From Hydrogenophilales bacterium CG12_big_fil_rev_8_21_14_0_65_61_21 (GTDB taxonomy: Bacteria > Pseudomonadota > Gammaproteobacteria > Burkholderiales > Thiobacillaceae), in NCBI GenBank assembly GCA_002782005.1, contig PFGT01000062.1:1-61885 (forward strand): a stretch of DNA of 61,885 nucleotides, read 5' to 3'. Shown here one piece after another: positions 18,227-55,395 of the stretch. The notes under the pieces are model-generated. The model searched no databases, was not told the DNA's origin, and saw nothing but the letters and a program-made list of their open reading frames with translations. The position numbers and the translations under genes are program-made. Positions within the stretch are counted from its first letter, which is position 1, and every line of letters begins with the position of its first letter.

Positions 18227-18284
18227 GACCGGCGCGCCGCGTGTCTGGAATCAGTAACGACCGGAACGAATCGCCGGTCCAGAT

Positions 18285-18704
18285 TCAGCGCATGTTCTTG
18301 AGGGCATATTGAGTGACCTGGTTCTGTTGGACCAAGGCGCTACCCAGGGCGCTGGCCAAGTTGCCGCTGGCCTTGCCCTTAAGCAAACGAAGGGCGGTCA
18401 GGTCTTTGGTCAGTTGATCCACCACCGGGGTCAGCGTTGCCGGCGCGGGGGCGGGAGAAGACGACTTGAGCTGGATGAATTTCTCCAGGGACTGACCGGC
18501 CTTGTCCAGCGCCTTGGTGTACTGGGGCACCAGCGGATCGGCAGCATAGGGTTTGACGGCGGCCAGATAACCAACCCTGGCCTTTGCCCACTGTTCCCGT
18601 ACTTGAGTCGCCACTGCCGCCGAGCTGGCGGCCCAGGCCGACACGGGCGCCGCCAGGCTGAGCAGCAGGGTCATAAGGATGAGGCGGACGGTATTTTCTT
18701 TCAT
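18285..18704 (-). CDS. Small secreted helical protein, unknown function
   Basis: A 139-residue protein with a clear signal peptide (LILMTLLLSLAAPVSAWA, cleavage near residue 25). The mature part is Ala/Leu/Lys-rich and helical, split by a short SSSPAPAPATLTP linker at about residues 80-92. No cysteines or known motif were seen. GGAG lies 9 bases before the start. It lies 58 bases upstream of the FecR-TPR-barrel gene in the same orientation, so it may be a periplasmic partner of that protein; this is inference from position only. Confidence 0.7.
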   Translation of the reverse strand: MKENTVRLILMTLLLSLAAPVSAWAASSAAVATQVREQWAKARVGYLAAVKPYAADPLVPQYTKALDKAGQSLEKFIQLKSSSPAPAPATLTPVVDQLTKDLTALRLLKGKASGNLASALGSALVQQNQVTQYALKNMR

Positions 18705-18753
18705 GGCAACGACTCCAAGTTAACGATCATGGCGGCTCACGCCGCAGTTTATC

Positions 18754-18827
18754 GCGGCCAAGGCCGCTCCCAGGGAATACTTTATGGCAGCAGGTATCCA
18801 CACCGTTGCGGGAGCGGCCTTGGCCGC
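18754..18827. repeat. REP-like inverted repeat, perfect 18-bp arms
   Basis: GCGGCCAAGGCCGCTCCC (18754-18771) and its exact reverse complement (18810-18827) are separated by 38 bases. Each arm also contains the 14-base palindrome GCGGCCAAGGCCGC (or GCGGCCTTGGCCGC). It lies just after the icd stop and before the next same-strand gene, where it could stabilise the 3' end of the long carbon-fixation transcript or help end it. Confidence 0.75.
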
Positions 18828-18839
18828 AACAAACCAGCG

Positions 18840-23040
<4,201 letters not shown>

Positions 23041-23088
23041 AGTCTCCACCTTTGTCTGTCGATTAACGTAAAAGTTGCCCAGCGGTTT

Positions 23089-25791: not shown

Positions 25792-25879
25792 TGCTTATTA
25801 CCTTTCGTCCAAACGGCCGCAGGGCGGGAAAATCGCATACTGACAGCCGCTTTTTATGTGAATTGGATTCTCGGTCGGA

Positions 25880-27160: not shown

Positions 27161-27206
27161 GGTTTACTTGCCTCTCCATTAATCAAATTTCAGCCACCGC
27201 AACCAT

Positions 27207-27227
27207 GGGACACGCTTACCGCGTCCC
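27207..27227 (-). promoter_or_regulatory. Intercistronic stem-loop between flxA and aclB
   Basis: On the minus strand this 21-base stretch folds into an 8-bp stem (one G-T pair) with a 5-base loop, opening GGGAC and closing GTCCC. No T tract follows, so it is more likely an RNA processing or stability element than a terminator. It divides the long cluster into an electron-transfer half and the citrate-cleavage half. Confidence 0.45.
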
Positions 27228-27247
27228 TGCTCGAAACCCATCGATAC

Positions 27248-28072
27248 CTAGTACTCTTCCGGTAGATTCTTCAGCTCGGCCCACGAATAGACCGGCCCCT
27301 TGACGCACACATAGTCCTTGCCGACATTGCAGCGGCCGCACTTGCCCAGGCCGCATTTCATCTTGTTCTCCAGGGTCGTGTATATCTGCTCGTCAGCGAA
27401 TCCGAGCTGGCTCAGGTTCTGGATCACATACTTGATCATGATCGGCGGCCCGCAGGTGATGGCGATGGCATTGTCGGACGAAGGCTCCTTGTCCATCACG
27501 TTGGCCGGCACGAAACCGCAGTAGGCATCCCAGCCATCCTCGGCCTTGTCCACCGACAAATGGACGTCGGCGACGCCGCGCAGTTTTTCCAGCTCCGCCT
27601 TGTACATGATGTCGCGTGGCGAACGGCCGCCGTAAAATACGGTGATATTCTTGAAATTGTCGCGTTGCGCCACGGCGGTGGTAATGACCGGCCAGATCGG
27701 CGCCAGGCCGCAGCCGCCGCCGATGAAGTAAAGATTCCTGCCCCGCCAGTCGTCAACCGGGAAGCTGTTGCCGTAGGGGCCACGGATGCCGACCACGTCG
27801 CCGACCGCCAGATCGTGGAAAGCGGCGCTGACCCGTCCCACCCGCATGATGGAAAACTGCTTGTATTCCTTGACCAGCGGCGAAGAGGCGATGGAGATCA
27901 TCATTTCGCCGCGTCCGAACGCCGATAGCATGGCGCACTGACCGCATTCATGTTCGAAGCTGTCGCCATTCAGCGGCTCTACCCGGAAGGTCTTGATGGC
28001 GCGCTCGCCGGGCACCTCTTCCTTGATGTAGGTGATCCGGGCCAGTTCCGGCAGGTAGATGTTATCCGGCAT
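27248..28072 (-). CDS. flxA: FlxA-like NAD(P)H/FAD oxidoreductase subunit
   Basis: A 274-residue ferredoxin-NADP reductase-like protein. The FAD domain carries MISIASSP (like RxYS/T). The NAD(P) domain has FIGGGCGLAPIWPV (residues about 116-129) and TCGPPIMIKYV. Near the C-terminus CGLGKCGRCNVGKDYVC supplies four cysteines for a [2Fe-2S] cluster, as in PyrK and hydrogenase gamma subunits. In the FlxABCD-HdrABC complex FlxA oxidises NAD(P)H and passes electrons inward. Its start overlaps flxB by 11 bases. Assignment rests on the fold plus the flxDCBA-hdrA context. Confidence 0.85.
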   Translation of the reverse strand: MPDNIYLPELARITYIKEEVPGERAIKTFRVEPLNGDSFEHECGQCAMLSAFGRGEMMISIASSPLVKEYKQFSIMRVGRVSAAFHDLAVGDVVGIRGPYGNSFPVDDWRGRNLYFIGGGCGLAPIWPVITTAVAQRDNFKNITVFYGGRSPRDIMYKAELEKLRGVADVHLSVDKAEDGWDAYCGFVPANVMDKEPSSDNAIAITCGPPIMIKYVIQNLSQLGFADEQIYTTLENKMKCGLGKCGRCNVGKDYVCVKGPVYSWAELKNLPEEY

Positions 28073-29096
28073 GTTCGGTTACCTTGTTGACCACATGGAC
28101 GATGTCGATTCCGACCGGGCAATCGCTGATGCAGCGACCACAGCCGGTGCATTGGTGCATCCCGAAATTCTCATGGAAATACTGAAACTTGTGGCACACC
28201 CGTTGCCGCAGCCGGGCGCCGACGGTTGGCCTCGGGTTGTGGCCCGAGGTGTGCATGGTGAAGTCGGGAAACTGGCAGTTGTCCCAGGTCCGCACCCGGT
28301 TGCCCTTGAGCGGCGCCGAACCGGTGACTTCATCGTTGATGTCGAAACAGTGGCAAGTCGGGCACAGAAAGGTGCATATACCGCAGCCGATACAGGCTTG
28401 CGCCAGTTCTTCCCAGAGCGGCGACTTGAAACTGGCCTTCAACCTGGCCGGCGCCCCATCGGGGTTGTTGATCGCCCGTTGCGGTTGGGCGACGGCCTCG
28501 GCGTGTACGCTTGCCGCCTGTTTACGGTCGGCGGCCGCCGGCATCTTGAGCAGATCGCCGGCGGTCGTCATTAATGACTTGCCGGTCTCGGTAATGGCAG
28601 CCAGAAAATAGCGGTCGCCCAGGTCGGTCATCAGGACATCAAGACCGTCGCTGCTGACCGGCGAGCCGCCGACCGACAGGCAAAAACAATGGGCGCTGGG
28701 CGGCTTGTTGCAGGCCAGACCAACGTAAGCCATGTTGTTGCGCCGTGACTGATAGTAAACATCGTCAACATGGTCGGCGAATACCCGATCCATGCGTACC
28801 GTGCCGCGAGCGTCGCAGGGACGCACGCCGAACACCACGCGATGCTTGCTATCCGGCAGTTTTTGCGTCAATCGCGGCGCTTCGCCCTTGATCTGCTCGA
28901 AGGAGAAAAACACCTCCCGCTGTGGGAAGGCAAAGCCCTTGGGCGGCTGCTTGGTGTTGGGGTGGTCGAGCCGGGCGGCGCCGACGACCGGCCGAAACGC
29001 CCAGACGCCGTCTTCAACCGCCGGCGCAAACGCCTCCCAGTCGGTCAAGGCGGCGATCCAGTCGTCCAGGCGTTGTTTATCGAGTATCTTTTCCAT
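28062..29096 (-). CDS. flxB: FlxB-like iron-sulfur subunit (hydrogenase beta / sulfite reductase A type)
   Basis: A 344-residue protein with two ferredoxin-type motifs in the C-terminal half: CIGCGICTFLCPTCHCF and CTGCGRCISDCPVGID. The N-terminal part (VVFGVRPCDARGTVRMDRVF; YVGLACNKPPSAHCFC) matches the family that includes the beta subunit of sulfhydrogenases and anaerobic sulfite reductase A. It would relay electrons between FlxA and the Hdr part. The ATG at 29096 is chosen because it lies just after the flxC stop with AGG about 8 bases before it; the longer frame would overlap flxC by 85 bases. Confidence 0.82.
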   Translation of the reverse strand: MEKILDKQRLDDWIAALTDWEAFAPAVEDGVWAFRPVVGAARLDHPNTKQPPKGFAFPQREVFFSFEQIKGEAPRLTQKLPDSKHRVVFGVRPCDARGTVRMDRVFADHVDDVYYQSRRNNMAYVGLACNKPPSAHCFCLSVGGSPVSSDGLDVLMTDLGDRYFLAAITETGKSLMTTAGDLLKMPAAADRKQAASVHAEAVAQPQRAINNPDGAPARLKASFKSPLWEELAQACIGCGICTFLCPTCHCFDINDEVTGSAPLKGNRVRTWDNCQFPDFTMHTSGHNPRPTVGARLRQRVCHKFQYFHENFGMHQCTGCGRCISDCPVGIDIVHVVNKVTEHAG

Positions 29097-29100
29097 GCGC

Positions 29101-30132
29101 TTACCTGATAAATTGACCGGGGTCGTCGTCGCGGAAGGAGGCCACCAGCGAGGGGCCGCCGATGCTGGCCCCAGGCTCATAGCCAAAGTGTTCGCGGGCC
29201 TCCCGTTCCATCTTGTTGTTGAGCAGACGCAACGGGATGTTGACCGGGCAGACCCGTTCGCACTCGCCGCAATCGATGCAGCGGCCAGCCAGGTGCATGG
29301 CGCGCGTCATGTGATAGGTGATGTTTTCGGAGCGCACCGCCGAGCGCTCTATCCAGCGGATGCGATTGGCCTTTTCCTCGGCCGTGGTTTCCGGCGCTAC
29401 CGGGAAGGTGATGCTGTCCACCACGCACTCGTCGCAGTAGCACATCGGGCATACCGAGCGGCACGCGAAGCAGCGGATGCAGCGCTCGAACTGACGGCAC
29501 CAGTATGCCCAACGGTCGGCCTCGCTGAGCGCCTCGAAACGGGCCAACGCAGTGAACGGCGCGACCAACTGGCGACTGGTCTGGTCCTCGCCGAACACCA
29601 CATTGTGTTCCTTGGGGAAGGGTTCGCGGCATTCCAGGCAGCGATCCGCCATGACCTCGCTGGCCGGTAGTCTCACCTCGCCCGCCAAGGTCGTGACAAC
29701 GAGTTCGGCACCGTCGATGACGGCGCTCAATGCCTGGGCGCCGTTCAGTAGCCGCGCCAGTTTGTATTCGACCAGTACGCCGCCGCCCTCGCAGGACACG
29801 CCGATGATGTAAACGTCTTCACGCTTGAAGTAGTGCTCCTGCATCAGCACGACGATGGCGCGGGCGTCGCAGCCCTTGGCGACGATGGCGATGGGCAAGT
29901 TTGGGGTCCGTTGCGCATGAGCCAGCGCCTTGCGATCCTCGACCAGGTAGAGCGCCAGGTTGTGGAAGCAGGTAGCATCCCATACCAGCTCATCGGCCTG
30001 TTCCGGATCGGTGATGGTGACCGGCTCGGCAAGCATGCCCCGGCTGCCGCGCTGGTAGCCGATGACGGCGCGAACCTCGCCCTTGGCTAACAGGTCACGC
30101 GCCGCGTCGCGAATACTCTGGACATCGATCAT
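29101..30132 (-). CDS. flxC: FlxC-like iron-sulfur protein (FrhB/FdhB-related)
   Basis: A 343-residue protein. The first half resembles coenzyme F420 hydrogenase/dehydrogenase beta-type proteins (AKGCDARAIVVLMQEHYFKR; GVSCEGGG). The second half has two [4Fe-4S] motifs, CIRCFACRSVCPMCYCDEC and CIDCGECERVCPVNIPLR. It starts inside the flxD stop (ATGA overlap of 4 bases) and ends 4 bases before flxB. This is the expected third partner between FlxD and FlxB. No F420 use is implied; many bacterial members of the family lack it. Confidence 0.82.
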   Translation of the reverse strand: MIDVQSIRDAARDLLAKGEVRAVIGYQRGSRGMLAEPVTITDPEQADELVWDATCFHNLALYLVEDRKALAHAQRTPNLPIAIVAKGCDARAIVVLMQEHYFKREDVYIIGVSCEGGGVLVEYKLARLLNGAQALSAVIDGAELVVTTLAGEVRLPASEVMADRCLECREPFPKEHNVVFGEDQTSRQLVAPFTALARFEALSEADRWAYWCRQFERCIRCFACRSVCPMCYCDECVVDSITFPVAPETTAEEKANRIRWIERSAVRSENITYHMTRAMHLAGRCIDCGECERVCPVNIPLRLLNNKMEREAREHFGYEPGASIGGPSLVASFRDDDPGQFIR

Positions 30133-30563
30133 GTGCGGTCCGCCTTCAATTTGTTCTGCGGTCCGAGCGGCTTGAGGTCGGCGACGAAATCCTTGACGAC
30201 TTGGGCGTACTTGGCACCCTCGGCGGCCGACACCCAGGACATCCGAAACCGATCCGGCTCGACGCCGACCATTTCAAGCAGCTCCTTGATGAGGTAGATC
30301 TTGCGCCGCGCCAGGTAGTTGCCCTCGATGTAGTGGCAGTCGCCGATATGGCAACCTGAGAGCAGAACGCCGTCCGCCCCCTTGTTGAAGGCCGACAGTA
30401 TGTAGAGTGGCGAAATGCTGCCCGAGCATGGCACGGTGATCGGCGTCGCGTTGGCCGGATACTGAATCCGGGAGACGCCGGCCAGGTCGCTGCCCGCCGA
30501 CGAGCACCACTTGCACAGGAAGGCGACGATCTTGGGTTCGTAAGCTTGTTCTTCTTCCGACAT
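30129..30563 (-). CDS. flxD: FlxD/MvhD-like adaptor iron-sulfur protein
   Basis: A 144-residue member of the MvhD/FlpD family, which docks electron-donating modules onto HdrA through a [2Fe-2S] cluster. CKWCSSAGSDLAGVSR (residues 17-32), PCSGSISP and SGCHIGDCHY hold the conserved cysteines. The gene lies 14 bases after hdrA and overlaps flxC by 4 bases, the classic hdrA-mvhD neighbourhood. It is the strongest single marker that the Flx genes feed an HdrABC complex. Confidence 0.92.
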   Translation of the reverse strand: MSEEEQAYEPKIVAFLCKWCSSAGSDLAGVSRIQYPANATPITVPCSGSISPLYILSAFNKGADGVLLSGCHIGDCHYIEGNYLARRKIYLIKELLEMVGVEPDRFRMSWVSAAEGAKYAQVVKDFVADLKPLGPQNKLKADRT

Positions 30564-30577
30564 CGGTTTCCCTTACT

Positions 30578-32527
30578 TCAAGCCAGACACGCTTCGATCA
30601 TCTCGAAGACCTGCATCTGCGTGGCGTTTTTGACTTCGATGGCGGCGCGCAGGCAGGTGGCCGTGCAACTGCCGCAACCTTCGCAAAGCACTTCGTTCAC
30701 CACCGCCTTGCCGTTCTCCAGCCGGATTGCATGGTAGGGGCAGGCGGTCACGCACATCTCGCAACCGGTGCAGTGGGAGCGGCGCACCCGGGCGACGGTC
30801 GGCGCATGGCTGAGGGTCGCCTGCGACAGCAGCGCGATCACCTTGGCGGCGGCCGCGCCAGCCTGGGCGACGGTCTCGGGAATATCCTTCGGCCCTTGGG
30901 CAGCGCCGGCCAGGAAGATGCCGGCGGTGACGCTCTCGACCGGTTTGAGCTTGGGGTGCGCCTCGGCCAGGAAACCATCCTTGTCGCGGCCGATCTTGAG
31001 CACCTTGGCGGCATCCGCCGTGCCCTTGGATGGCTGCATGGCCAGCGCCAATACCACCATGTCGGCATCGATCTCGACGTTCTGTCCGGTCAGGGTGTCG
31101 GTACCGAGCACCTTGATCTTGTCATTATGCCGGTAGAGTTTGGAAACGCGACCGCGCAGATAAATAGCCCCGTCCTCCTCCATGGTGCGCTGCACAAACT
31201 CCTCGTAACCCTTGCCGCCAGAGCGAATGTCGATGTAGAACACATAGGCGCGGCCATCCGGGACATGGTGCTTGTATAGGCTGGCGTGCTTGGCGGTGTA
31301 CATGCAGCAGATCTTGGAGCAGTAGGCGCAGTGCTGCGCCGGGTCGCGCGAGCCCGCGCACTGGATGAACACCACATCCTTGGGCACCTTGTGGTCGGAG
31401 GGCCGCAGCACATGGCCGCTGGTTGCGCCCGAGGCCGAACACAGACGCTCGAATTGCAGGCCGTCCAGCACGTCTTCGACCTTGCCATAGCCGTACTCGC
31501 CCAGGTTCTCCTGACCGTATAGATCGAAGCCGGTAGCGACGACGATGGCGCCCACCTCCTCGACCACGGTTTCGGGCCGCATGTCGTAGTTGATCGCTTC
31601 GGCCTCGCAGACATCCTTACACTTGCCGCAGCGGATGGGATTCAAACCCAGGCAGGCATCCTCGTCGAGCGTGTAGCTGGCCGGAATCGCCTGCGCGTAA
31701 GGAATGTAGATGGCCCGCCGGGCGGTCAGGCCAAGCTCGTATTCGTTGGGCACCACTACCGGGCAAACCTGGGTGCAGTCATCGCAGATCTTGCACTTCT
31801 CAGGATCAACGAAGGTCGGCTTCTTGAGTATCTTGGCCTTGAAATTGCCCACCGAGCCGGATACTTCCTGCACCTCGCAGTAGGTCATTACCGTGATCTT
31901 GGGGTGACGCGACACCTCCACCATCTTGGGCGACAAGATGCACTGCGAGCAGTCCAGGGTGGGAAAGGTTTCGGAGAGCTGGAGCATGTGGCCGCCGAGG
32001 GTGGCCTGTTTCTCGACCAGCAGCACCTCCAGACCGGCGTTGGCCATATCGAGCGAGGCCTGGATGCCGGCGATGCCGCCGCCGATCACCATGACCCGGC
32101 GGGTAACCGGGACGGCAATCGGTTCCAAAGACTGGTTGCGGCCGGCCCGGCGCACGGCGCTGCGGGAAATCTTGATCGCCTTCTCGGTTCCCACATCGCG
32201 ATCCTTGTGCACCCAGGCGCACTGTTCGCGAATGTTGGCGATCTCGCAGGTGAAGCCGCTGATGCCGGCACGGGTGGCGTTATCGCGGAAGGTTTTTTCA
32301 TGCAGTGACGGCGAACAACAGGAGACGACGACGCTGTCCAACTGGTTATCCTTGATCGCCTGGATGACCGCGTTCTGACCGGGGTCGGAACACATGTAGA
32401 CGTAGTCCTGAGAGTAGACGACGGTCTCCTCGGCGGACATCTCCTTGGCCACTCTTGCCACGTCGACCGTGGCGGCGATGTTGTTGCCGCAGTGGCAGAC
32501 GAAAACGCCGGTACGCTTTTTGGTCAT
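30578..32527 (-). CDS. hdrA: HdrA-type FAD iron-sulfur subunit (electron-bifurcating core)
   Basis: A 649-residue, full-length methanogen-like HdrA. The N-terminal domain opens with GVFVCHCGNNIAATVDV and has further cysteines to about residue 103. The FAD fold follows (VMVIGGGIAGIQASLD, from residue 145). Iron-sulfur motifs are CKICDDCTQVCP (about 245-256), CGKCKDVCEAEAINYD (about 300-315) and, at the C-terminus, CTGCEMCVTACP plus CEGCGSCTATCLRAAI. HdrA flavin is the bifurcating centre in methanogens. The presence of FlxD, HdrB and HdrC in the same operon, and the complete motif set, distinguish it from the sHdrA of sulfur oxidation. Its start overlaps korC by 4 bases, coupling it to the 2-oxoacid oxidoreductase. 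Confidence 0.93.
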   Translation of the reverse strand: MTKKRTGVFVCHCGNNIAATVDVARVAKEMSAEETVVYSQDYVYMCSDPGQNAVIQAIKDNQLDSVVVSCCSPSLHEKTFRDNATRAGISGFTCEIANIREQCAWVHKDRDVGTEKAIKISRSAVRRAGRNQSLEPIAVPVTRRVMVIGGGIAGIQASLDMANAGLEVLLVEKQATLGGHMLQLSETFPTLDCSQCILSPKMVEVSRHPKITVMTYCEVQEVSGSVGNFKAKILKKPTFVDPEKCKICDDCTQVCPVVVPNEYELGLTARRAIYIPYAQAIPASYTLDEDACLGLNPIRCGKCKDVCEAEAINYDMRPETVVEEVGAIVVATGFDLYGQENLGEYGYGKVEDVLDGLQFERLCSASGATSGHVLRPSDHKVPKDVVFIQCAGSRDPAQHCAYCSKICCMYTAKHASLYKHHVPDGRAYVFYIDIRSGGKGYEEFVQRTMEEDGAIYLRGRVSKLYRHNDKIKVLGTDTLTGQNVEIDADMVVLALAMQPSKGTADAAKVLKIGRDKDGFLAEAHPKLKPVESVTAGIFLAGAAQGPKDIPETVAQAGAAAAKVIALLSQATLSHAPTVARVRRSHCTGCEMCVTACPYHAIRLENGKAVVNEVLCEGCGSCTATCLRAAIEVKNATQMQVFEMIEACLA

Positions 32528-33087
32528 GACGCCGCCCCGCCCGCATTCATAGCTTCCAACCCGTACTCATAGCCCTTCTCGAAGGCCTTGATATTGACCT
32601 TCAGAAAACGGTCGGGCACCAGGCCGGGCAGCGCCTTCTTCATGGCCTCGGCGGACACCACCTTGGTCACTGCGGTCAAGAAGCCCAGCGCCACGAGGTT
32701 GGTAAACAACCGATTGCCGACTTCCTCGGCGAAGCGGGTTGCTGGTACACGATAGAGTTTGAGCTCTAGGTGTTCGCCGCTCAGTTTCACCAGGTCCTGC
32801 TCGACAATCAGGATGCCGCCCTTGGGCAACTCGCTCCAATACTTGTCGTAGGCCTCCTGGGACAGCGCCAGGAGTATCCCGGGGTGGGTGAGGTAGGGAT
32901 AGAGGACGCGTTCGTCGGAGACCACGAGTTGCGCCGCGCAGGCGCTGCCACGGGCCTCCGGACCGAAGCTCTGGGTCATGGTGGCGAACTTGTCGTCGTA
33001 CAGGGACAGCGCCTTGCCGGTAATCAAGGCGCAGCGAATGATGCCCTGACCGCCGAATCCCGAGAACCTGATTTCATGAGTGCTCAT
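32524..33087 (-). CDS. korC: 2-oxoglutarate:ferredoxin oxidoreductase gamma subunit
   Basis: A 187-residue gamma subunit: IRFSGFGGQGIIRCALITGKA at the N-terminus is the family signature, with QSFGPEARGS further on. It completes a four-gene set in the order delta, alpha, beta, gamma, the same as the oorDABC genes of Campylobacter-type enzymes. The complex reductively carboxylates succinyl-CoA using two reduced ferredoxins. It follows korB by 11 bases and overlaps hdrA by 4. Confidence 0.93.
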   Translation of the reverse strand: MSTHEIRFSGFGGQGIIRCALITGKALSLYDDKFATMTQSFGPEARGSACAAQLVVSDERVLYPYLTHPGILLALSQEAYDKYWSELPKGGILIVEQDLVKLSGEHLELKLYRVPATRFAEEVGNRLFTNLVALGFLTAVTKVVSAEAMKKALPGLVPDRFLKVNIKAFEKGYEYGLEAMNAGGAAS

Positions 33088-33098
33088 GCGCTCGCTTC

Positions 33099-34250
33099 CT
33101 ACTTACGGGGCTTCTTGGCGGCGGTTTTTTTGACCGGAGCCTTGGTTGCGACCTTTTTCACAGTCTTGGCAACGGCCTTGGCCGGAGTCTTCTTGGCCGC
33201 AGCGGCGGGCACGGCCCGCCCTATAGCCGGCTTCTTGGCGGCGGCCTTTTTGACCGGAGCCTTGGTTGCGACCTTTTTCACTACAACCTTTTCGGATGCT
33301 GCCTGTTCTGCCGCCAGCACAGCGGCCCGGCGGGCAGCAACCCGCGCCTTCTCGGCCTTTTCTTCGGCCTCCCGCTCGGGAATGGTCTTGCCATAAAGCT
33401 GGTAATCGTCGCCCACCAGCTTGACCGCGCATTTATCGACGGCCTCCAGATAGGTGGGCTTAGCCTTGTCGACGAACTTGCCGACGACGATCTTGCCCTG
33501 GTAGTCGATGGCCGTCTCGCGGGTGTCGCAACCATGCTTGAGCACCGTGTTTTCCTGATAGAACTGGAGCATGTCGACGCCGTCGCCGAGGCGGTTGCGG
33601 CGCAGGTAGAGCGTGGTGCAGGGCGAGATAAGCTCAATGAAGGAAAAACCCCTGTGGGCGAGCGCTTCCTCGATCGACTGGGTGACGTTGCGGACATCCA
33701 TCGAGGTCCAGCGGGCGATGTAGGTGGCGCCAGCGGCATCGGCCAGGAAGGGCAGGCTGAACGGATATTCGTAGTTGCCGTAAGGCGTGGTCGAGGCGAT
33801 TGCCGAGGTCGGTGTGGTCGGCGTCACCTGGCCGCCAGTCATGCCGTAAGTGAAGTTGTTGTTGCAGATCACCACGATATCCATGTTGCGCCGAGCGGCA
33901 TGGATCAGGTGATTGCCGCCGATGCCGGTCAGATCACCCTCGCCGCTGAATACCACCACCGTCAGCTCGGGGTTGGCCAGCTTGATGCCGGTGGCCACCG
34001 GAATGGCACGGCCATGCGTGGTATGGATCGAGTCGAAATCGACATAGCCCGCCACCCGGCCGGTACAGCCGATGCCCGACACCACGACCAGCTTCTTGGG
34101 ATCGATGCCACTGCGCTTGACGGCCTCGGCAAAGGCGTTCACCTCGGAGCCGATGCCGCAGCCGGGACACCAGATATGCGGCATCCGATCCATCCGCAGG
34201 ACCCCGGACATGGGGCTGTCGTGTTTAAATTTTCCGATATCGGTAGTCAT
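33099..34250 (-). CDS. korB: 2-oxoglutarate:ferredoxin oxidoreductase beta subunit with a histone H1-like Lys/Ala/Pro tail
   Basis: A 383-residue protein. Residues 1-290 are a normal beta subunit: HIWCPGCGIG, then the thiamine-diphosphate site GEGDLTGIGGNHLIHAARRN followed by CNNNFTYGMTGGQ. Cys28, Cys31, Cys62 and others fit the [4Fe-4S] site. Beta subunits normally stop near residue 280-290. Here an Ala/Lys/Glu-rich linker (about 291-320) leads into a basic tail (321-383) in which KKVATKAPVKK occurs twice (325-335 and 365-375). The DNA behind the tail contains a 53-base direct repeat. The tail resembles bacterial histone H1-like proteins; whether it binds nucleic acid is unknown. The start overlaps korA by 4 bases. 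Confidence 0.92.
   Translation of the reverse strand: MTTDIGKFKHDSPMSGVLRMDRMPHIWCPGCGIGSEVNAFAEAVKRSGIDPKKLVVVSGIGCTGRVAGYVDFDSIHTTHGRAIPVATGIKLANPELTVVVFSGEGDLTGIGGNHLIHAARRNMDIVVICNNNFTYGMTGGQVTPTTPTSAIASTTPYGNYEYPFSLPFLADAAGATYIARWTSMDVRNVTQSIEEALAHRGFSFIELISPCTTLYLRRNRLGDGVDMLQFYQENTVLKHGCDTRETAIDYQGKIVVGKFVDKAKPTYLEAVDKCAVKLVGDDYQLYGKTIPEREAEEKAEKARVAARRAAVLAAEQAASEKVVVKKVATKAPVKKAAAKKPAIGRAVPAAAAKKTPAKAVAKTVKKVATKAPVKKTAAKKPRK
33109..33161. repeat. Direct repeat copy 1 within the korB tail
   Basis: This 53-base stretch recurs at 33229-33281 with two mismatches (TT versus CC at 33125-33126). The copies are exactly 120 bases apart, so the reading frame is kept. It encodes the KKVATKAPVKK repeat and suggests the tail grew by in-frame duplication. 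Confidence 0.85.
33229..33281. repeat. Direct repeat copy 2 within the korB tail
   Basis: Second copy of the 53-base repeat that begins at 33109, offset by 120 bases (40 codons). It encodes residues about 324-340 of KorB. Confidence 0.85.
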
Positions 34251-35413
34251 TGGTTGGCCTTTCTGATGGCGTCCAGGATGACCTCGGGGTCATGTACCGC
34301 GCCGCCGCAGTGATTGACGCTGATGGTTGCGCACTGGCCGCCGGCGCCGCGTTCCACCTCATGCACCATCTGGCCGTAGTTGATCTCCGGCACCACGAAG
34401 GCCTTTATCTTGGGCGCCAGTTCGCGGATACGTTTCTCGCAGAACGGCCAAATGGTGATGAGCCGCAGGTAACCGACCTTGATGCCTTCCTTGCGGGCAT
34501 CCTGGATGGCCTTGACGGCAATGCGGGAGGTAATGCCGTAGGACACCACCACGACATCGGCGCCATCGACCTGATCCTCATCGAGACGGATGATCTGGTC
34601 GGCGTTGCCGTTGATCTTCTCCATCAGGTGAGTAATCACGATCTTGCTCTGTTCGGCGGTCATGACCGGATAGCCGCGCTCGTTGTGAGTCAGGCCGGTG
34701 ATGTGGAAGTTGTAACCGTCGCCCGCCTGGGTCATGGGATGGCCGCCCTGGCTGTCGAACTGGTAGGGGCGGAAGTCCGCCTTGGGGCCGCTGTAGTTAT
34801 TGCGTGGCACCACCTGGATCTGCTCCGCCGGCGGGATGACCACCTTCTCGTGCATGTGACCGACAGTCTCATCGGTCAGGATGATGACCGGCACCCGGTA
34901 GAACTCCGACAGGTTGAAGGCCTCGACGGTGAGATCGAAACACTCCTGCGGGCTGTCCGGGGTCAGGGCGATGATGTTGTAATCGCCATGCGAACCATAG
35001 CGTGCCTGCATCATGTCCTGTTGGGCGGTCAGCGTCGGCAGGCCGGTCGACGGGCCGCCGCGCTGCACGTTGGCGATTACCAGCGGGGTCTCGGTCATGG
35101 CCGCCAGGCCGATGTTTTCCACCATCAAGGAGAAGCCGGGGCCGCAGGTCACGGTCATCGCCTTCTTGCCGCCCCAGGCAGCGCCGATCAGGGCGGCGAT
35201 GGAGGCCAACTCGTCCTCCATCTGGATGAACAGCGCGCCGACCTCGGGCGCCCGCTCGGCGAAGCGCTCGGCGGTCTCGGTCGAGGGTGTGATGGGATAG
35301 CCGGCAAAGAATCGGCAGCCGGCCGCCAGGGCGCCCTCGGCGATGGCGTGGTCGCCATCCATGAAGTGCGGGCCGCTATCGACCCCTCTTGGATCTGCGG
35401 TAACTGTCTTCAC
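34247..35413 (-). CDS. korA: 2-oxoglutarate:ferredoxin oxidoreductase alpha subunit
   Basis: A 388-residue alpha subunit. FFAGYPITPSTETAERFAE (about residues 35-53) is the pyrimidine-binding signature with YPITPS, and GPGFSLMVENIGLAAMTE follows. QRGGPSTGLPT and a C-terminal transketolase-like domain complete it. The size and the separate gamma and delta subunits fit the four-subunit Kor/Oor type, not the large one-chain pyruvate enzyme. Substrate choice (2-oxoglutarate) is inferred from sequence type and from the TCA neighbours. Its start overlaps korD by 4 bases. Confidence 0.93.
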   Translation of the reverse strand: MKTVTADPRGVDSGPHFMDGDHAIAEGALAAGCRFFAGYPITPSTETAERFAERAPEVGALFIQMEDELASIAALIGAAWGGKKAMTVTCGPGFSLMVENIGLAAMTETPLVIANVQRGGPSTGLPTLTAQQDMMQARYGSHGDYNIIALTPDSPQECFDLTVEAFNLSEFYRVPVIILTDETVGHMHEKVVIPPAEQIQVVPRNNYSGPKADFRPYQFDSQGGHPMTQAGDGYNFHITGLTHNERGYPVMTAEQSKIVITHLMEKINGNADQIIRLDEDQVDGADVVVVSYGITSRIAVKAIQDARKEGIKVGYLRLITIWPFCEKRIRELAPKIKAFVVPEINYGQMVHEVERGAGGQCATISVNHCGGAVHDPEVILDAIRKANQ

Positions 35414-35673
35414 TTTTCTGCTTCCCCTTTCGCAATTTCGTTATCCTTGGTCACGAAGATAGAAAACTCCGGACAGATCATTTGGCAATACTGGCAGTCG
35501 TGGCATTTTTCCGGGTTCTTGGCATAGGGTGGGTGATAGCCCTTGGCATTGAACTCCGGGGAGATGTCCAGCACATTGGTCGGACAAAACTGGACGCAAA
35601 AACCGCAGCCCTTGCACCAGATGTCGTTGATATAAACCGTGCCATGGAGCTGCTTTAGATTATTGAAGAACAT
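35410..35673 (-). CDS. korD: 2-oxoglutarate:ferredoxin oxidoreductase delta subunit (2x[4Fe-4S] ferredoxin-like)
   Basis: An 87-residue protein with CKGCGFCVQFCP (about residues 20-31) and CHDCQYCQMICP (about 57-68), each with four cysteines. It is the electron-entry subunit where external ferredoxin docks. First of the korDABC quartet, 11 bases after hdrB and overlapping korA by 4 bases. Confidence 0.93.
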   Translation of the reverse strand: MFFNNLKQLHGTVYINDIWCKGCGFCVQFCPTNVLDISPEFNAKGYHPPYAKNPEKCHDCQYCQMICPEFSIFVTKDNEIAKGEAEK

Positions 35674-35684
35674 TGCCGCATCCC

Positions 35685-36584
35685 TCAGGCCAGACCGCGA
35701 CCGGCCAAGGTCGGCTGCGGATCAATGTGGTGAAGATCGAAACGCAGCGCCGCATCGTCGCAGCCGAACGCCAACGCCATCAACTGGGTGAAGTAAAGCA
35801 CCGGCAGGTGATAAAAGTCCGGATTGAGGCGGCGCGCGTCATCCTGGCGGAAATCCAGATTGAAGGCGCACAGCGGGCAGCTCACCACCACCAAGTCGGC
35901 CTGTTCCTCGTGCGCCGAACCCATGATCTTGTCGGTGCGTTCGGCAATGATCTCCGGCTTGTCGACGGTGTGATAGGCGCCGCAGCATTCGGTCTTCAAC
36001 GGAAACTGGACCGGGGTGGCGCCGAGGGCCGTAATCAGGTCCTCCATGATCGTCGGGTTTTCGACATCGTCGAAGGCGACCTCTTTCGGACGCACCAGCA
36101 GGCAGCCGTAGTAGCAGGCCACCCGCAGCCCGGCGAGCGGCTTTTTCACCTTCTCGGCCAGCTTATCAAAACCGATCCGGTCGCGCAGGTATTCCAGCAA
36201 GTGCAGGACATCGACATCACCCTGGTATTTGGTTTCCTCCTGGTACAGGAACTCGTTGATGGTTTCGAGCGCGTCGGGACGCTTCTTGACGTCGATGTTG
36301 GCGCGCTTCAAGGTGTTGTAACACATGGCGCAGGTGGTCATGAATTCGCTGGCCTGGGCCTCCTTGACGCGAATCAGGTTGGTCACCGGCGCCACCCGAT
36401 TCATGATGTTGTCGGAGCCCAGCGCATGGACCGTACCGCAACAATTCCAGCGCGCCAGTTCCTCGACCTCGACACCCAGCTCCGCCATCGACGAGACGGT
36501 GGAAACGTCGAAATTCCGGGCCTGGTTCTTCAGTGTGCAGCCGGGATAATAAATAAGTTTCATCGGCGTATTTCCATTGGCCAT
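35685..36584 (-). CDS. hdrB: HdrB-type subunit with two CCG domains
   Basis: A 299-residue protein with two complete cysteine-rich CCG domains: YYPGC, NCCG and CAMC in the first, CYYGC, ECCG and CPLC in the second. In heterodisulfide reductases this subunit holds the non-cubane [4Fe-4S] clusters that reduce a disulfide, the high-potential outlet of bifurcation. Related CCG subunits serve fumarate reductases in methanogens and Campylobacter-type bacteria. With frdAB nearby, either a thiol/disulfide or fumarate could be the final acceptor. Start overlaps the hdrC stop. Confidence 0.93.
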   Translation of the reverse strand: MANGNTPMKLIYYPGCTLKNQARNFDVSTVSSMAELGVEVEELARWNCCGTVHALGSDNIMNRVAPVTNLIRVKEAQASEFMTTCAMCYNTLKRANIDVKKRPDALETINEFLYQEETKYQGDVDVLHLLEYLRDRIGFDKLAEKVKKPLAGLRVACYYGCLLVRPKEVAFDDVENPTIMEDLITALGATPVQFPLKTECCGAYHTVDKPEIIAERTDKIMGSAHEEQADLVVVSCPLCAFNLDFRQDDARRLNPDFYHLPVLYFTQLMALAFGCDDAALRFDLHHIDPQPTLAGRGLA

Positions 36585-37003
36585 CAGGATGTCTGCTTGC
36601 GCAGGGCGCTGATCAGGGCGATCGGCGGCAACGCGCCAATCGCCTCGGGAGATAGTTCCTGAATCTTGAGGTGGTCAGCGCGGTTAACGGTGCCCAGCAC
36701 GGTTTGGCGCAGCGCCTCGATGACCTCGGCGATCCGGATGTCCTTCGGGCAGCGGCTATTGCAGGTCATGCAGGACACGCAAATCCAGATGGCGCGGGTC
36801 GCCAGCAACTGTTTCTCCATGCCCAGTTGGGCCATGCGGATGATCTGGTTAGGCAGCACGTCCATGTGCGCCGCCATCGGACAACCCGCGGAGCACTTGC
36901 CACACTGGTAGCAGGCCAGCAGTTTCTGGCCGCTGATCTTTTCGATCTTGGCCACAAACGTGCCACCGAGCCGAGATGAAGAAATGCGTAAAGTGGTATT
37001 CAT
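36584..37003 (-). CDS. hdrC: HdrC-type iron-sulfur subunit
   Basis: A 139-residue protein with two [4Fe-4S] motifs, CYQCGKCSAGCP and CVSCMTCNSRCP, the standard HdrC pattern linking HdrA to HdrB. The ATG at 37003 begins 8 bases after the rubrerythrin-like gene stops; reading further upstream would overlap that gene. The ribosome-binding site is weak (GGA), so translation may depend on coupling to the gene before it. HdrA is encoded away from HdrB and HdrC, on the far side of korDABC, but in the same direction. Confidence 0.92.
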   Translation of the reverse strand: MNTTLRISSSRLGGTFVAKIEKISGQKLLACYQCGKCSAGCPMAAHMDVLPNQIIRMAQLGMEKQLLATRAIWICVSCMTCNSRCPKDIRIAEVIEALRQTVLGTVNRADHLKIQELSPEAIGALPPIALISALRKQTS

Positions 37004-37011
37004 GTTCCGGC

Positions 37012-37545
37012 TCAGTATTTCGCATCCATGCGGAACTCGGGCGTATCGAGCCACAACCCGACGTTCTGCACGCTGTCCAGTTGCGCCTGGAGGCTGTCGT
37101 AGTGGAAGCCCTCCTCCTGGATTATTTTCCCGATCAGGCCGAGCATCTCGCGATCCGTGGTGTGTTCGGCTATCTCCTGGTACACCTGGATGGCGCGCCG
37201 CTCCATCTCCATGGCCAGGCGCAGTGCCTGGGTATCGTCGGCGACCACCTCGTGACCGCGTTGCGCCACGGCGGCTTGCAGCTCGGCGATGGTCTTCGAT
37301 GGCTGGGCGATGGTCGCTTCCTGGTCGGCAAGCCGCTGCCACTCGTCCTCACCGATCAGCGCGGCAAACAGCACGTGGGTTTCCGCCACATGCTCCGTTT
37401 CCGCTGCCGCCAGGCGCAGGAACATGGCCTTGCCGGTGGGGTTCTGAGTCAGCTCGGCCACATGACGGTAGAAGCGCTCGCCGCCGAACTCGAAGCCGAT
37501 CGCGGTGCGCGCCAGTTCGATCACCTTGTCGTCGATGTGAGTCAT
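37012..37545 (-). CDS. Rubrerythrin-like diiron protein without a rubredoxin domain
   Basis: A 177-residue ferritin-like four-helix protein. Diiron-ligand motifs are visible: GFEFGGERFYRHVAE with AETEHV in the first half, and MEMERRAIQVYQEIAEHT with IQEEGFHYDSL in the second. No C-terminal rubredoxin CxxC pair is present. Such proteins commonly remove peroxide or oxygen in anaerobes. Sitting between frdA (18 bases) and hdrC (8 bases), it may protect the oxygen-sensitive iron-sulfur and Kor enzymes encoded around it. This role is inferred. Confidence 0.85.
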   Translation of the reverse strand: MTHIDDKVIELARTAIGFEFGGERFYRHVAELTQNPTGKAMFLRLAAAETEHVAETHVLFAALIGEDEWQRLADQEATIAQPSKTIAELQAAVAQRGHEVVADDTQALRLAMEMERRAIQVYQEIAEHTTDREMLGLIGKIIQEEGFHYDSLQAQLDSVQNVGLWLDTPEFRMDAKY

Positions 37546-37562
37546 TAGTTTTGTCCGGCGCG

Positions 37563-39278
37563 TCAGGCGTCGGACCGCTCCTCTTGCAAGCGGTTATGCA
37601 CTACCGAAGCGCCGGGCAGCACGTTGCCGCCGCGCACCAGTTGCCGTTTCCTGACATCCTTGGGCGCATAGGACGGCAACAGGATCGGGGCCACCAGATT
37701 GGTCTGGACTCCGGAATTGGCCAGTTCTTTCTCATAGTTATCGAGGTGCGCCAGGCTGAGTTTGCCGAGCTTGACGGTCTTGGCGTAGGCGCCGGCTGAC
37801 TTGCCGGCGCGCCGACCGAATACGTTGTAGTCGAGCACCGAATTGCCCATCAGCCGGTTGCGACCGTGCAGGCCGCCGGTGGCCTCGCCGGCCACGTAGA
37901 GACCAGGGATGTTGGTCTCGCAACGTTCGTTGATCTCGACACCGCCGTTCTGGTAGTGCAACGACGGGTAAATCAGCATCGGCAGTTTGTTGATGTCGAT
38001 GCCGTAGCGGATGTACTGGCGGTACATCGCCGGGAACTGGTGGGCCACATAGCCTTCGCCGTGCAGCATGTCGATCAGCGGCGAGTCCAGCCATACGCCG
38101 AGACGCCCCGACGGGGTTTCAATGCCGCCGCCGTTTTGCACGCATTCGCGTATGATCGCCGAGGCCTCGATGTCGCGCGGCTCGCGCGGGAAGACAAACA
38201 GCTCGCCGTCCTTGTTCAGCGGCTGGCCGCCGGCACCGCGGATCTTCTCGGTAATCAGGAAGCCGGCGATCTGTTCAGGGAAGGAGGCGCCGGTCGGGTG
38301 GTATTGAACCGAATCCATGTACATCAGCTTGGCACCGGCACGATAGGCCATCACCAGGCCGTCGCCAGTGGCGCCGTAGTGGTTAGTGGTGTCAAAACCG
38401 CGAATGTGCAGGCGACCATAGCCGCCAGTGGCGATGAGGGTAGACTTCGCCTTGACGGTAAAGAATTCTTCGCTGTCCATGCTGTAAAGAACCGCGCCGG
38501 CGCACCGGCCCTCGTCATCCATAATCAATTCCACCGCCGGCATGAATTCCTTGATGGTAATCATGTCGGGATGGTTGCGCACTTCGTCCATCAGGGTGCG
38601 CATGATCATGGCGCCGGTGTAGTCGCGGCACGACACCATGCGCTTGCGCGAGGTGCCGCCGCCGTGCAGCACCTGGATGGAGCCGTCTTCTTCCTTGTCC
38701 CACACCACGCCCAGGTCTTCGAGCCACTTGACCACGCCGGGGCCATCTTCAGTGAGCGCCTTGACCAGTTCCGGCTTGTTCTCGAAGTGGCCACCGCCGA
38801 TGGCATCGAGATAGTGTTTGGTCGGCGAGTCGGTGCGCGATACGGCGGCCTGCATCCCGCCTTGTGACATCATGGTGTTGGCGTCGCCCATGCGCAGCTT
38901 GGTGGCGATCAGCGAACGAATGCCGTGTTGCTGCATGGCGATCAGCGCGGCATTGCAGCCGGCGCCGCCACCGCCGATGATCAGCAGGTCGGTTTCGAAA
39001 TCTGGCTTGTCCAGATTCACTTGCTCGCTGCGCAACCAGGAGTGCGATTCCAGCAGGTCCGCCACTTCGGTAGTCAGCTTCTCGCCCTTGTTGGGGCCGA
39101 CACGCACCGGCCGCAAAGCATCGGGCTTGTAGTCGGGATGGAAATCCTCCAGCACACGGCGCCGCTCTTCGGCGTTCATGGGCGGGTAAACGGGGACCGA
39201 CTTCCTGGCCAATTCCAGGCGAGCGGCGCGCGTCTGGACCACCTTGCGCAACGATTCTTCCATGTACTCTGGATACAT
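37563..39278 (-). CDS. frdA: Fumarate reductase/succinate dehydrogenase flavoprotein subunit, non-covalent FAD type
   Basis: A 571-residue flavoprotein. An unusual N-terminal extension of about 90 residues precedes the FAD fold (LLIIGGGGAGCNAALIA). Catalytic-site segments are normal: QYHPTGAS, EKIRGAGG, LHYQNGGVEIN and GLHGRNRLMGNSVLDYNVFG. In enteric FrdA the histidine in SHTVAAEGG carries covalent FAD. Here that place reads ANTMMSQGG, with Asn134 instead of His, so FAD should be bound non-covalently, as in soluble fumarate reductases. No membrane-anchor gene is nearby. In the reductive TCA cycle it would reduce fumarate to succinate. Confidence 0.92.
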   Translation of the reverse strand: MYPEYMEESLRKVVQTRAARLELARKSVPVYPPMNAEERRRVLEDFHPDYKPDALRPVRVGPNKGEKLTTEVADLLESHSWLRSEQVNLDKPDFETDLLIIGGGGAGCNAALIAMQQHGIRSLIATKLRMGDANTMMSQGGMQAAVSRTDSPTKHYLDAIGGGHFENKPELVKALTEDGPGVVKWLEDLGVVWDKEEDGSIQVLHGGGTSRKRMVSCRDYTGAMIMRTLMDEVRNHPDMITIKEFMPAVELIMDDEGRCAGAVLYSMDSEEFFTVKAKSTLIATGGYGRLHIRGFDTTNHYGATGDGLVMAYRAGAKLMYMDSVQYHPTGASFPEQIAGFLITEKIRGAGGQPLNKDGELFVFPREPRDIEASAIIRECVQNGGGIETPSGRLGVWLDSPLIDMLHGEGYVAHQFPAMYRQYIRYGIDINKLPMLIYPSLHYQNGGVEINERCETNIPGLYVAGEATGGLHGRNRLMGNSVLDYNVFGRRAGKSAGAYAKTVKLGKLSLAHLDNYEKELANSGVQTNLVAPILLPSYAPKDVRKRQLVRGGNVLPGASVVHNRLQEERSDA

Positions 39279-39306
39279 CTGATTCCTCTCTTATTCCGTG
39301 TGCCGA

Positions 39307-40047
39307 CTATTCGGAATCGCGGGCGTAGTAACGCTCGGATAAAGCTTCGCGGCCCATAGCCATCAGCTCAGCGTATTCCGCCTCATAGACGCCCTCTTCC
39401 ACCGCCTTGACGCGCTCCGCCAGTTCCGGGCTGTCCTTGCGCAGATAGCGGCCATAGAGGCGCTTCGCCAGGATGGCCATCAGGGGTTGGGTGATTTCAG
39501 CCGGGCAGCGCAGCATGCACAACCCGCAGACGACGCAGTCGAAGGACAGGTCCATCACCGCCGCGATGTCGCCGCGTTTGGCGGCCTGGACGTAATCCAT
39601 GACCTGGAGCCCCTGCGGACAGGACTTGGTGCAGGTGCCGCAGGCCACGCAGCGGAACACCGTCGGGTACATCTGCTGAATGGCGCTGACGTTGGGCCTG
39701 AGCTTCTCGATGTCGTAGATCGCCTTTTCGGCCGGAACCGAGGGTATCTGCGCCAGCGTCATGCCGTCCTCGACCAGGGTCATACAGGCCAGGCCAGTAC
39801 GGATTTTGTAATCGCCAGGCAGGCGGTAGAGGGTGGCGCAGGCGCCGCAATAGCCCTCGCGGCAACCAGCGCCACGGATGATCTGGTGGCCGGCATATTC
39901 GATGGCGCCCATGATGGTCGCCTCGGCCGGCACCTCATAGGCCTTGCCCATGATGTATACCGTGATCAGTCGCTCAGCCGCTTCGCGCCCTCCGTCGGCC
40001 GCCGAAGTCGTTGGACTGTTCGCTATTCCCGCCGACACGCTTGTCAT
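39307..40047 (-). CDS. frdB: Fumarate reductase iron-sulfur subunit, two [4Fe-4S] type
   Basis: A 246-residue protein. The N-terminal [2Fe-2S] domain carries GCREGYCGACATLYR and a later Cys in GLACMT. The C-terminal domain has CVACGTCTKSCPQG and CVVCGLCMLRCPAE, that is two four-cysteine motifs. Classic FrdB/SdhB proteins have one [4Fe-4S] and one [3Fe-4S] site, the latter next to the quinone. The extra cysteine here suggests a lower-potential, soluble-type chain. The ATG at 40047 has AAAGG 9 bases upstream; earlier starts lack one. It is the first gene of the 21-kb run. Confidence 0.9.
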   Translation of the reverse strand: MTSVSAGIANSPTTSAADGGREAAERLITVYIMGKAYEVPAEATIMGAIEYAGHQIIRGAGCREGYCGACATLYRLPGDYKIRTGLACMTLVEDGMTLAQIPSVPAEKAIYDIEKLRPNVSAIQQMYPTVFRCVACGTCTKSCPQGLQVMDYVQAAKRGDIAAVMDLSFDCVVCGLCMLRCPAEITQPLMAILAKRLYGRYLRKDSPELAERVKAVEEGVYEAEYAELMAMGREALSERYYARDSE

Positions 40048-40332
40048 ATAAACACCTTTATCATCTTGTTTCCGCATTTCAGGATGCTTTAGTCGAATTG
40101 CGACTGAGGCCGAAGCCCTTCAGCAAGGGCGCCGGTCAGCGTCGTTGCTAAATTGGTTCACGACTTCAAGGTCCGATCATAAAGAGCTTCGTTAAGGGTT
40201 GACAATAGATGATGTCAATATACGATAAAAAAAAATAAATCACCTCGCATGACAATACCAATTATCGTTGCCGTTTATCGATGCTACCGTGGTCGCATCG
40301 AATATTGCCACCTTGCCGACTAGGAGACCTTC
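40048..40332. promoter_or_regulatory. Divergent control region between frdB and mdh-citE
   Basis: A 285-base gap, AT-rich in its centre (40218-40240) against a GC-rich background. TTGACA (40200-40205) and TGTCAA (40214-40219) form a palindrome with an 8-base spacer. The plus-strand TTGACA pairs with TACGAT (40222-40227) at 16 bases, a candidate promoter for mdh-citE. The minus-strand TTGACA within TGTCAA could be the -35 box for the frd operon, but its -10 is weak. CGATAAA (40224-40230) and TTTATCG (40274-40280) are a further inverted pair. No regulator can be named. Confidence 0.5.
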
Positions 40333-55320: not shown

Positions 55321-55350
55321 TATAACCGTCATGACCCGGCAATAATGCCT

Positions 55351-55380
55351 GACAGACCCCTCGAATTCGTTAGAAGTTCC
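55351..55380 (-). promoter_or_regulatory. Sigma-E-type promoter upstream of rpoE (autoregulation)
   Basis: On the minus strand GGAACTT (55380-55374) is followed after 17 bases by TCTGTC (55356-55351). The sigma-E consensus is GGAACTT, 16-17 bases, then TCTGA or TCnnA, so the -35 is perfect and the -10 close. The leader to the rpoE ATG would be about 90 bases. The site overlaps the region before nadB and argues that nadB starts at 55396. Confidence 0.7.
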
Positions 55381-55395
55381 CAACCTCGCCAAACC

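Follow-up and report, generated by a model that had tools for sequence, protein, structure and literature searches.

A FlxABCD-HdrABC gene cluster with 2-oxoglutarate:ferredoxin oxidoreductase and fumarate reductase genes in a Thiobacillaceae genome, and its possible place in the reductive tricarboxylic acid cycle

The FlxABCD-HdrABC unit of Desulfovibrio vulgaris reportedly takes electrons from reduced nicotinamide adenine dinucleotide (NADH), and bifurcation to ferredoxin has reportedly been proposed for it. The high-potential acceptor postulated for it is DsrC, and kor and frd genes are not known to belong to the unit. Here we analyzed a cluster with the same Flx-Hdr subunit set that also holds genes for a 2-oxoglutarate:ferredoxin oxidoreductase (OGOR; Kor) and a fumarate reductase-type enzyme (FrdBA). 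It lies in a stretch of 61,885 nucleotides (contig PFGT01000062.1, GC content 61.7%), hereafter the window, from Hydrogenophilales bacterium CG12_big_fil_rev_8_21_14_0_65_61_21 of the family Thiobacillaceae; the genome holding it comprises 2.27 Mb in 126 contigs and has an estimated completeness of 99.5%. Further systems resemble parts of this cluster. In the hydrogenase-HdrABC complex of Methanothermococcus thermolithotrophicus (structure 5odc) HdrA and HdrB are alike, whereas a hydrogenase replaces Flx and the acceptor is the heterodisulfide. The parts of TfrB form one chain in TfrAB, the thiol:fumarate reductase of methanogens, whereas the window encodes separate FrdB, HdrC and HdrB. Hydrogenobacter thermophilus has a soluble, five-subunit, NADH-dependent fumarate reductase in its reductive tricarboxylic acid (TCA) cycle, which resembles, by description rather than by sequence, the NADH-linked soluble fumarate reduction proposed below; we know of no Flx-Hdr complex associated with it.

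Reductive TCA gene clusters have been reported in tubeworm symbionts, in the cultured Thioflavicoccus mobilis and in the aquifer metagenome-assembled genome RIFOXYD12_FULL_61_37 (Rubin-Blum et al., 2019, PMC6315080). In its passages on these clusters, that paper describes korABCD and tfrAB interspersed with flxABCD-hdrABC, suggests a complex that would hand electrons directly to OGOR and to the fumarate reductase "TfrAB", and states that the genes were transferred horizontally. A 2024 study of the Riftia symbiont (PMC11636981), in its part on this cluster, repeats the coupling idea in a direct and a DsrC-mediated variant and shows korABCD lying, as in the window, between hdrA and hdrBC. The coupling of Flx-Hdr to Kor and Frd is not a new idea, having been in print since 2019. 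A literature search, with most subscription journals and preprints outside its coverage, returned no biochemical test of a complex of Flx-Hdr, Kor and Frd.

The window resembles the cluster of Rubin-Blum et al. as described in those passages: flx-hdr is interspersed with kor and the fumarate reductase genes, and aclAB, acn, idh and mdh are present in both. Rubrerythrin appears in the legend of the published map, RuBisCO is reported for the tubeworm symbionts and Thioflavicoccus as we found it in the genome of the window, and the electron flow proposed there is the same. The iron-sulfur protein is named TfrB in that paper, whereas FrdB of the window lacks the CCG domain of TfrB; this comparison is by name, not by sequence. 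Neither pntAB nor rnf was noticed in the annotated parts of the window, in which no search was aimed at them. New here are the conservation of gene order in 23 genomes, the co-occurrence of FrdA and HdrA, and a three-clade pattern of FrdBA.

Gene order of the cluster

All seven FlxABCD-HdrABC subunits are encoded together, with korDABC between hdrB and hdrA. The 14 genes of the cluster, in the order in which they are read, are as follows.

39307–40077, minus strand: frdB, iron-sulfur protein, 256 amino acids (domain and family searches, residue check)
37563–39278, minus strand: frdA, fumarate reductase-type flavoprotein, 571 amino acids (domain and family searches, alignment, structure model)
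37012–37545, minus strand: rubrerythrin-like ferritin-fold protein (rbr), 177 amino acids, between frdA and hdrC
36584–37003, minus strand: hdrC, 139 amino acids, two [4Fe-4S] motifs
35685–36584, minus strand: hdrB, two CCG domains, both non-cubane cluster motifs
35410–35673, minus strand: korD, ferredoxin-like subunit of OGOR
34247–35413, minus strand: korA
33099–34250, minus strand: korB, 383 amino acids, Lys/Ala-rich C-terminal tail
32524–33087, minus strand: korC
30578–32527, minus strand: hdrA, flavin adenine dinucleotide (FAD) and iron-sulfur protein, 649 amino acids
30129–30563, minus strand: flxD, MvhD/FlpD family
29101–30132, minus strand: flxC, iron-sulfur protein
28062–29096, minus strand: flxB, iron-sulfur protein
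27248–28072, minus strand: flxA, FAD/NAD(P)-binding oxidoreductase

The minus-strand order frdB-frdA-rbr-hdrC-hdrB-korD-korA-korB-korC-hdrA-flxD-flxC-flxB-flxA continues into aclA-aclB-acn-idh. Open reading frames (ORFs) of the 14 genes are separated by only −11 to +28 bases, and it is therefore likely that they form one transcription unit. The initial annotation had described a full flxABCD-hdrABC set interleaved with korDABC and frdAB in a single transcription unit. Every gene that it named is found on the minus strand where it was placed, and the single unit is likely as a prediction from spacing; the rubrerythrin gene had been overlooked, and some start sites were off. For hdrC, the long ORF at 36584–37342 has a doubtful GTG start, and 36584–37003 (139 amino acids) is most likely the true gene. 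The start of flxB is most likely the ATG at 29096 rather than the TTG of the longest ORF, while frdB may start at 40077 or at 40047, where the initial annotation ends and an in-frame ATG stands at residue 11. A promoter scan, which we did not use as evidence, gave one minus-strand candidate 5′ of frdB (40205–40176), in a region that holds 2 sites where chance alone predicts 1.7; in 18000–37900 there is 1 site where 4.9 are predicted.

Proposed electron flow and the supply of FrdBA

Our preferred reading, held tentatively and at slightly below an even chance, is that the cluster encodes an NADH-oxidizing, bifurcating FlxABCD-HdrABC with outputs to two reductive TCA steps, Kor and Frd. FlxA would accept a hydride from NADH, and FlxB, FlxC and FlxD would relay the electrons to HdrA and its flavin. 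One electron, at low potential, would leave by way of the ferredoxin-like clusters of that subunit for ferredoxin or KorD and so reach KorABCD, which would use it in making 2-oxoglutarate. The other, at high potential, would travel from HdrC to HdrB, FrdB and FrdA, where fumarate would be reduced to succinate. For every two NADH oxidized, the complex would deliver two low-potential electrons and one succinate. This would fit the cycle, a single turn of which calls for one OGOR step and one reduction of fumarate. With assumed potentials of −320 or −280 mV for NADH and −420 or −500 mV for ferredoxin, the reaction releases about 18 to 49 kJ per 2 NADH (−18 to −49 kJ), so at these potentials the energetics allow bifurcation to ferredoxin and fumarate. 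If HdrBC does supply FrdBA, the cost of the low-potential electrons used by 2-oxoglutarate synthase would be covered by fumarate reduction, in a ratio matching the cycle exactly, which would explain how bacteria that rely largely on NADH as reductant afford the reductive TCA cycle. Fumarate would then be a new terminal acceptor for HdrA-type flavin-based bifurcation. The gene content, gene order, cofactor ligands and conserved linkage are observed; bifurcation, its direction and the contact between HdrBC and FrdBA are what we infer.

To follow individual residues, we aligned the proteins of the window clade (tier 1; 25 rows from 23 genomes, with L129 being a second contig of genome G156). The ratios exclude rows without a match or with the residue beyond the aligned part, and count loci L054 and L118, which by length and identity are one contig, twice. 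HdrA aligns with 5odc at 638 bits over residues 2–646 and has the iron-sulfur ligands and the flavin site expected of a bifurcating HdrA. Its Lys413, the flavin-site lysine, aligns with Lys409 of 5odc_A and is kept in all 18 rows spanning it. The ten motif Cys of HdrB, which make up both non-cubane motifs, are kept in 20 of the 20 rows spanning all ten; against the structure library HdrB scored 136 bits to 5odc, and the alignment shown is that with 7bkb_B. Both cluster motifs of HdrC are kept. The Flx names are based on domains, gene order and PMC6315080 rather than on an Flx-specific model. Flx-HdrABC is a likely bifurcating complex, predicted to be driven by NADH.

FrdB carries one [2Fe-2S]-type motif (C72, C77, C80, C98), together with two complete [4Fe-4S] motifs of four Cys each. 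All 12 Cys are kept in 23/23 rows of the window clade and in 10/10 and 19/19 rows with a match from the second and third FrdBA clades described below. Classical SdhB-type subunits carry a [3Fe-4S] site of three Cys; the last cluster of FrdB has four Cys, against three for this quinone-linked site, and the protein scores 31 bits to the dhsB subfamily model, below its cut-off of 88. Among 2Fe-2S families only Fer2_4 and Fer2 matched. The domain search did not match a CCG domain (PF02754) in FrdB, so the name TfrB does not strictly fit; in the window the CCG domains are on the separate HdrB. A structure model of FrdB (predicted local distance difference test, pLDDT, 82.8) gave weak fold matches, with RnfC best, followed by NuoG-type and other proteins; HdrC chains ranked 13 and 14, and no SdhB or FrdB chain was among the best 50 matches.

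The flavoprotein FrdA has an N-terminal extension of about 93 amino acids, and its structure model (pLDDT 81.9) matches E. coli FrdA best. The usual C-terminal domain Succ_DH_flav_C (PF02910) was not matched in the domain search of FrdA; a second FrdA homologue in the window, at 55345–56979, does match it. The fumarate/succinate active-site residues H327, T343, E344, R347, H441 and R475 are kept in 24/24 window-clade rows and in 11/11 and 20/20 rows of the other clades. At the position of the FAD-linking His of complex II flavoproteins, FrdA has Asn134, which presumably favors fumarate reduction. The best NCBIfam match is TfrA, named as a coenzyme M/coenzyme B (CoM/CoB) fumarate reductase, with 341 bits against a curated cut-off of 718, a score far too low for an equivalog assignment. 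An assignment as L-aspartate oxidase was rejected: the score is lower (276 bits), an FrdB partner is encoded alongside, and a separate homologue is present at 55345–56979. The four-Cys third cluster of FrdB, the lack of a CCG match and Asn134 of FrdA suit a soluble, fumarate-reducing enzyme.

The initial annotation had noted that FrdAB needs an electron donor. No gene for a membrane or quinone anchor adjoins frdBA; since FrdB also has no thiol (CCG) domain, electrons are probably supplied by a soluble redox protein. The leading candidate is HdrC/HdrB, and ferredoxin or KorD are the alternatives. A TfrB model is matched weakly in different parts by FrdB, HdrC and HdrB (36, 30 and 44 bits, against a curated cut-off of 385), which suggests that wiring from HdrCB to FrdB is reasonable.

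Several observations weigh against direct wiring. The intact non-cubane motifs of HdrB are as compatible with a disulfide substrate as with a role as conduit. DsrC, postulated as the disulfide partner of Desulfovibrio Flx-Hdr, is encoded in 12/12 cluster genomes tested, so that this sink would be at hand; the genome of the window has 4 matches, none of them on the contig of the window. In the part of PMC11636981 that deals with expression, the cluster genes of the Riftia symbiont are co-expressed in an operon-like manner except tfrAB, and this argues against a fixed 1:1 complex. In one alternative, the substrate of HdrB is a disulfide, of DsrC or of a small thiol, and the dithiol formed is re-oxidized at an HdrB-type site that feeds FrdBA, which would keep the energetic logic and dispense with direct wiring. 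The HdrB motifs, the distribution of DsrC, the published DsrC-mediated variant (PMC11636981, in the part cited) and TfrA as the best family of FrdA all speak for it. Nevertheless, we consider it unlikely: with no CCG domain on FrdB, FrdBA alone shows no thiol-oxidizing site, and a transfer from HdrB to FrdB would still be required.

Every subunit could also operate in the opposite direction, with succinate and reduced ferredoxin co-oxidized to NADH (confurcation) in an oxidative cycle, and Hdr-type enzymes are reversible in principle. We regard this as very improbable. Reducing NAD with electrons of succinate (+33 mV) is a steep uphill step, aclAB in the same gene run marks a reductive cycle, and Asn at the covalent-flavin position would be expected to favor fumarate reduction.

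Conservation of the cluster and neighbors of FrdBA

Public genomes were scanned for the cluster with two short peptides only, and the resulting 20 loci are a lower bound; none is titled Thioflavicoccus or tubeworm symbiont, so published members were missed. FrdA of these loci is 71–96% identical in the best segment. All are from metagenome assemblies, with titles including Gallionella, Nitrosomonadales, Hydrogenophilus, Rhodocyclaceae, Sulfurisoma and Thiotrichales. Together with the window and genomes G272 and G156 they make up the 23 genomes of the gene-order comparison. The order frdB-frdA-(rbr)-hdrC-hdrB-korDABC-hdrA-flxDCBA is kept up to the sequence ends with two exceptions (L124 and L122), and the arrangement is therefore not a matter of chance. 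All 14 genes lie in one stretch in 11 genomes; in 10 of them the retrieved stretch stops within flxA. The rbr gene directly follows frdA in 22/23. In L124 hdrC takes its place, about 1 base from frdA, and a second contig of that genome starts within hdrB and continues korD-korA-korB-korC-hdrA-flxD-flxC-flxB-flxA-aclA-aclB. In all 22 loci that continue (L055 stops at rbr), hdrC comes next after frdA, with rbr between except in L124; in 21 of the 22, the gene after hdrC is hdrB. The exception, L122, counts against the proposed coupling: frdB-frdA-rbr-hdrC is followed by unrelated genes, and the best HdrB of that genome is 34% identical.

The rubrerythrin-like gene, absent in L124, is the least conserved of the 14, with a mean identity of 60% over 20 loci; as a guess, its product shields the iron-sulfur enzymes from oxygen or peroxide. 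As an observation on Kor, the last ~85 residues of KorB form a Lys/Ala-rich, histone H1-like tail. The korB ORF encodes 383–433 amino acids in the window and 11 loci, and 307–330 in L053, L107, L118, L119 and L121.

To assess co-occurrence, we sampled 369 genomes of the class and 117 of the family of the window. In the class sample, window-type FrdA (78–100% identical) and HdrA (E ≤ 1e-120, 81–100%) were found in the same 4 of 369 genomes. In the family, FrdA (E ≤ 1e-180) occurs in 2/117 genomes and HdrA (E ≤ 1e-120) in 9/117, namely the same 2 and 7 others. The two proteins thus agree cleanly across the class sample, whereas within the family E-value alone does not separate them from other HdrA. 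The 7 additional HdrA (L160–L166) are 43–44% identical and have hdrC, hdrB and an mvhD-like gene nearby. Within their 14.5–19.5 kb stretches no frd or flxABC match was found in 7/7, and the only korB-like match, in L160, is weak. In L162, the one of these loci that was read closely, an ORF some 1.3 kb away from the mvhD-like gene likely encodes the large subunit of a [NiFe] hydrogenase, judging from its motifs. FrdA is present in 4/4 sampled genomes from the order of G272. Such a patchy distribution suggests that the block was spread by horizontal transfer.

More distant FrdA relatives were detected at 43–47% identity in 11 more genomes of the class and at 47–53% in 30 genomes of the phylum outside the class; loci were retrieved from all 11 of the former and from 20 of the latter. 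A tree of 33 of the 54 available FrdA (the window and 53 others) resolved three groups, with supports of 100/100 for the window clade (10 sequences), 100/100 for the clade of the 11 class loci (10) and 99/97 for the third (13). The gene neighbors of frdBA differ between them. In the window clade, HdrCB is encoded beside FrdBA. In the sister clade, a NuoF-like gene of ~418 amino acids lies just downstream of frdA (within ~0.2 kb) in 11/11 loci, with flavin mononucleotide (FMN) and iron-sulfur domains confirmed in the 2 of 11 inspected; its product presumably oxidizes NADH. No NuoF-like gene was found in the searched stretches of window-clade or third-clade loci. The third clade has neither HdrCB nor a NuoF-like gene near FrdBA in 20/20 stretches (4.5–20 kb). 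Instead, korA and succinyl-CoA ligase-like genes accompany frdBA in 18/20, the other two being contigs under 5 kb. The succinyl-CoA ligase domains were confirmed in L087, the one third-clade locus inspected for them, and of the two third-clade loci that were read, L087 has fumarase genes upstream and L089 does not.

The electron-input partner of FrdBA thus likely differs between clades, and the position after frdA likely encodes an electron-input subunit in two of the three groups. Of the new findings, this clade-specific neighbor argues most strongly that HdrCB is the partner of FrdBA in the window clade. The third clade counts on the other side: no Hdr is encoded near FrdBA in 20/20 loci and an HdrA match spanning the protein occurs in only 1/20 genomes, and FrdBA can therefore probably work without Hdr. 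No second-clade genome has such a match (0/11); partial HdrA-like matches alone were seen in 14 third-clade and 2 second-clade genomes.

Across clades FrdBA is often accompanied by OGOR genes, with korA in 6/11 of the NuoF-type stretches. This bears on a further alternative, in which separate enzymes share one regulon: Flx-Hdr would make reduced ferredoxin for Kor with DsrC or another disulfide as sink, and FrdBA would be fed by ferredoxin, KorD or another soluble carrier. FrdBA relatives near kor rather than hdr (the 18/20 third-clade and 6/11 NuoF-type stretches) fit this, as does the separate regulation of tfrAB in the Riftia symbiont described in that part of PMC11636981. We nonetheless hold it to be unlikely, since window-clade frdBA sits at the hdrCB end and does not directly adjoin kor, and window-type HdrA and FrdA co-occur. 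Returning to direct coupling through HdrBC, which the initial annotation had put forward as its own inference and which we leave at that grade, the gene content supports the link and no finding is incompatible with it, but the proposal dates from 2019 and tfrAB is expressed apart in Riftia. Overall it is plausible, already proposed and unproven. In wider terms, FrdBA could be a plug-in fumarate reductase module, serving as the physical high-potential arm of Flx-HdrABC(-Kor) here and linked to a NuoF-like NADH subunit in the sister clade, perhaps for an equivalent job; this is possible but rather doubtful.

The frdB-frdA-nuoF-like sets of the sister clade (L056:8781–12301 and L057–L066, with frdB unmatched in L066) likely encode a soluble NADH-fumarate reductase of Gammaproteobacteria. 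One narrow literature search returned no publication on these sets.

Further TCA genes and other features of the window

The remaining reductive TCA block and the gene divergent from frdB are as follows.

25880–27160, minus strand: aclA
23089–25791, minus strand: aclB
21100–23049, minus strand: acn
18840–21122, minus strand: idh, monomeric
40333–42345, plus strand: fusion of malate dehydrogenase and an HpcH/HpaI-type lyase, divergent from frdB

With aclAB, acn, idh, mdh, korABCD, frd and flx-hdr together, and RuBisCO in the genome, the window has the gene complement described by Rubin-Blum et al. for such clusters. The bacterium is probably capable of carbon fixation through a reversed Krebs cycle. 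RuBisCO is encoded in the genome of the window and in all 12/12 cluster genomes tested. The genes of two carbon-fixation pathways coexist in the genome of the window, as in the published cases.

The fusion protein comprises malate dehydrogenase at residues 1–322 and the lyase at residues 393–651, and is matched at 74–96% in L106, L107, L109, L113, L114 and L115. The lyase domain may act as a citryl- or malyl-CoA lyase, a role that would suit the cycle. Elsewhere in the window, at 14612–18226 on the minus strand, an ORF of 1204 amino acids combines a FecR domain, tetratricopeptide (TPR) repeats and a match to a TonB-receptor barrel.

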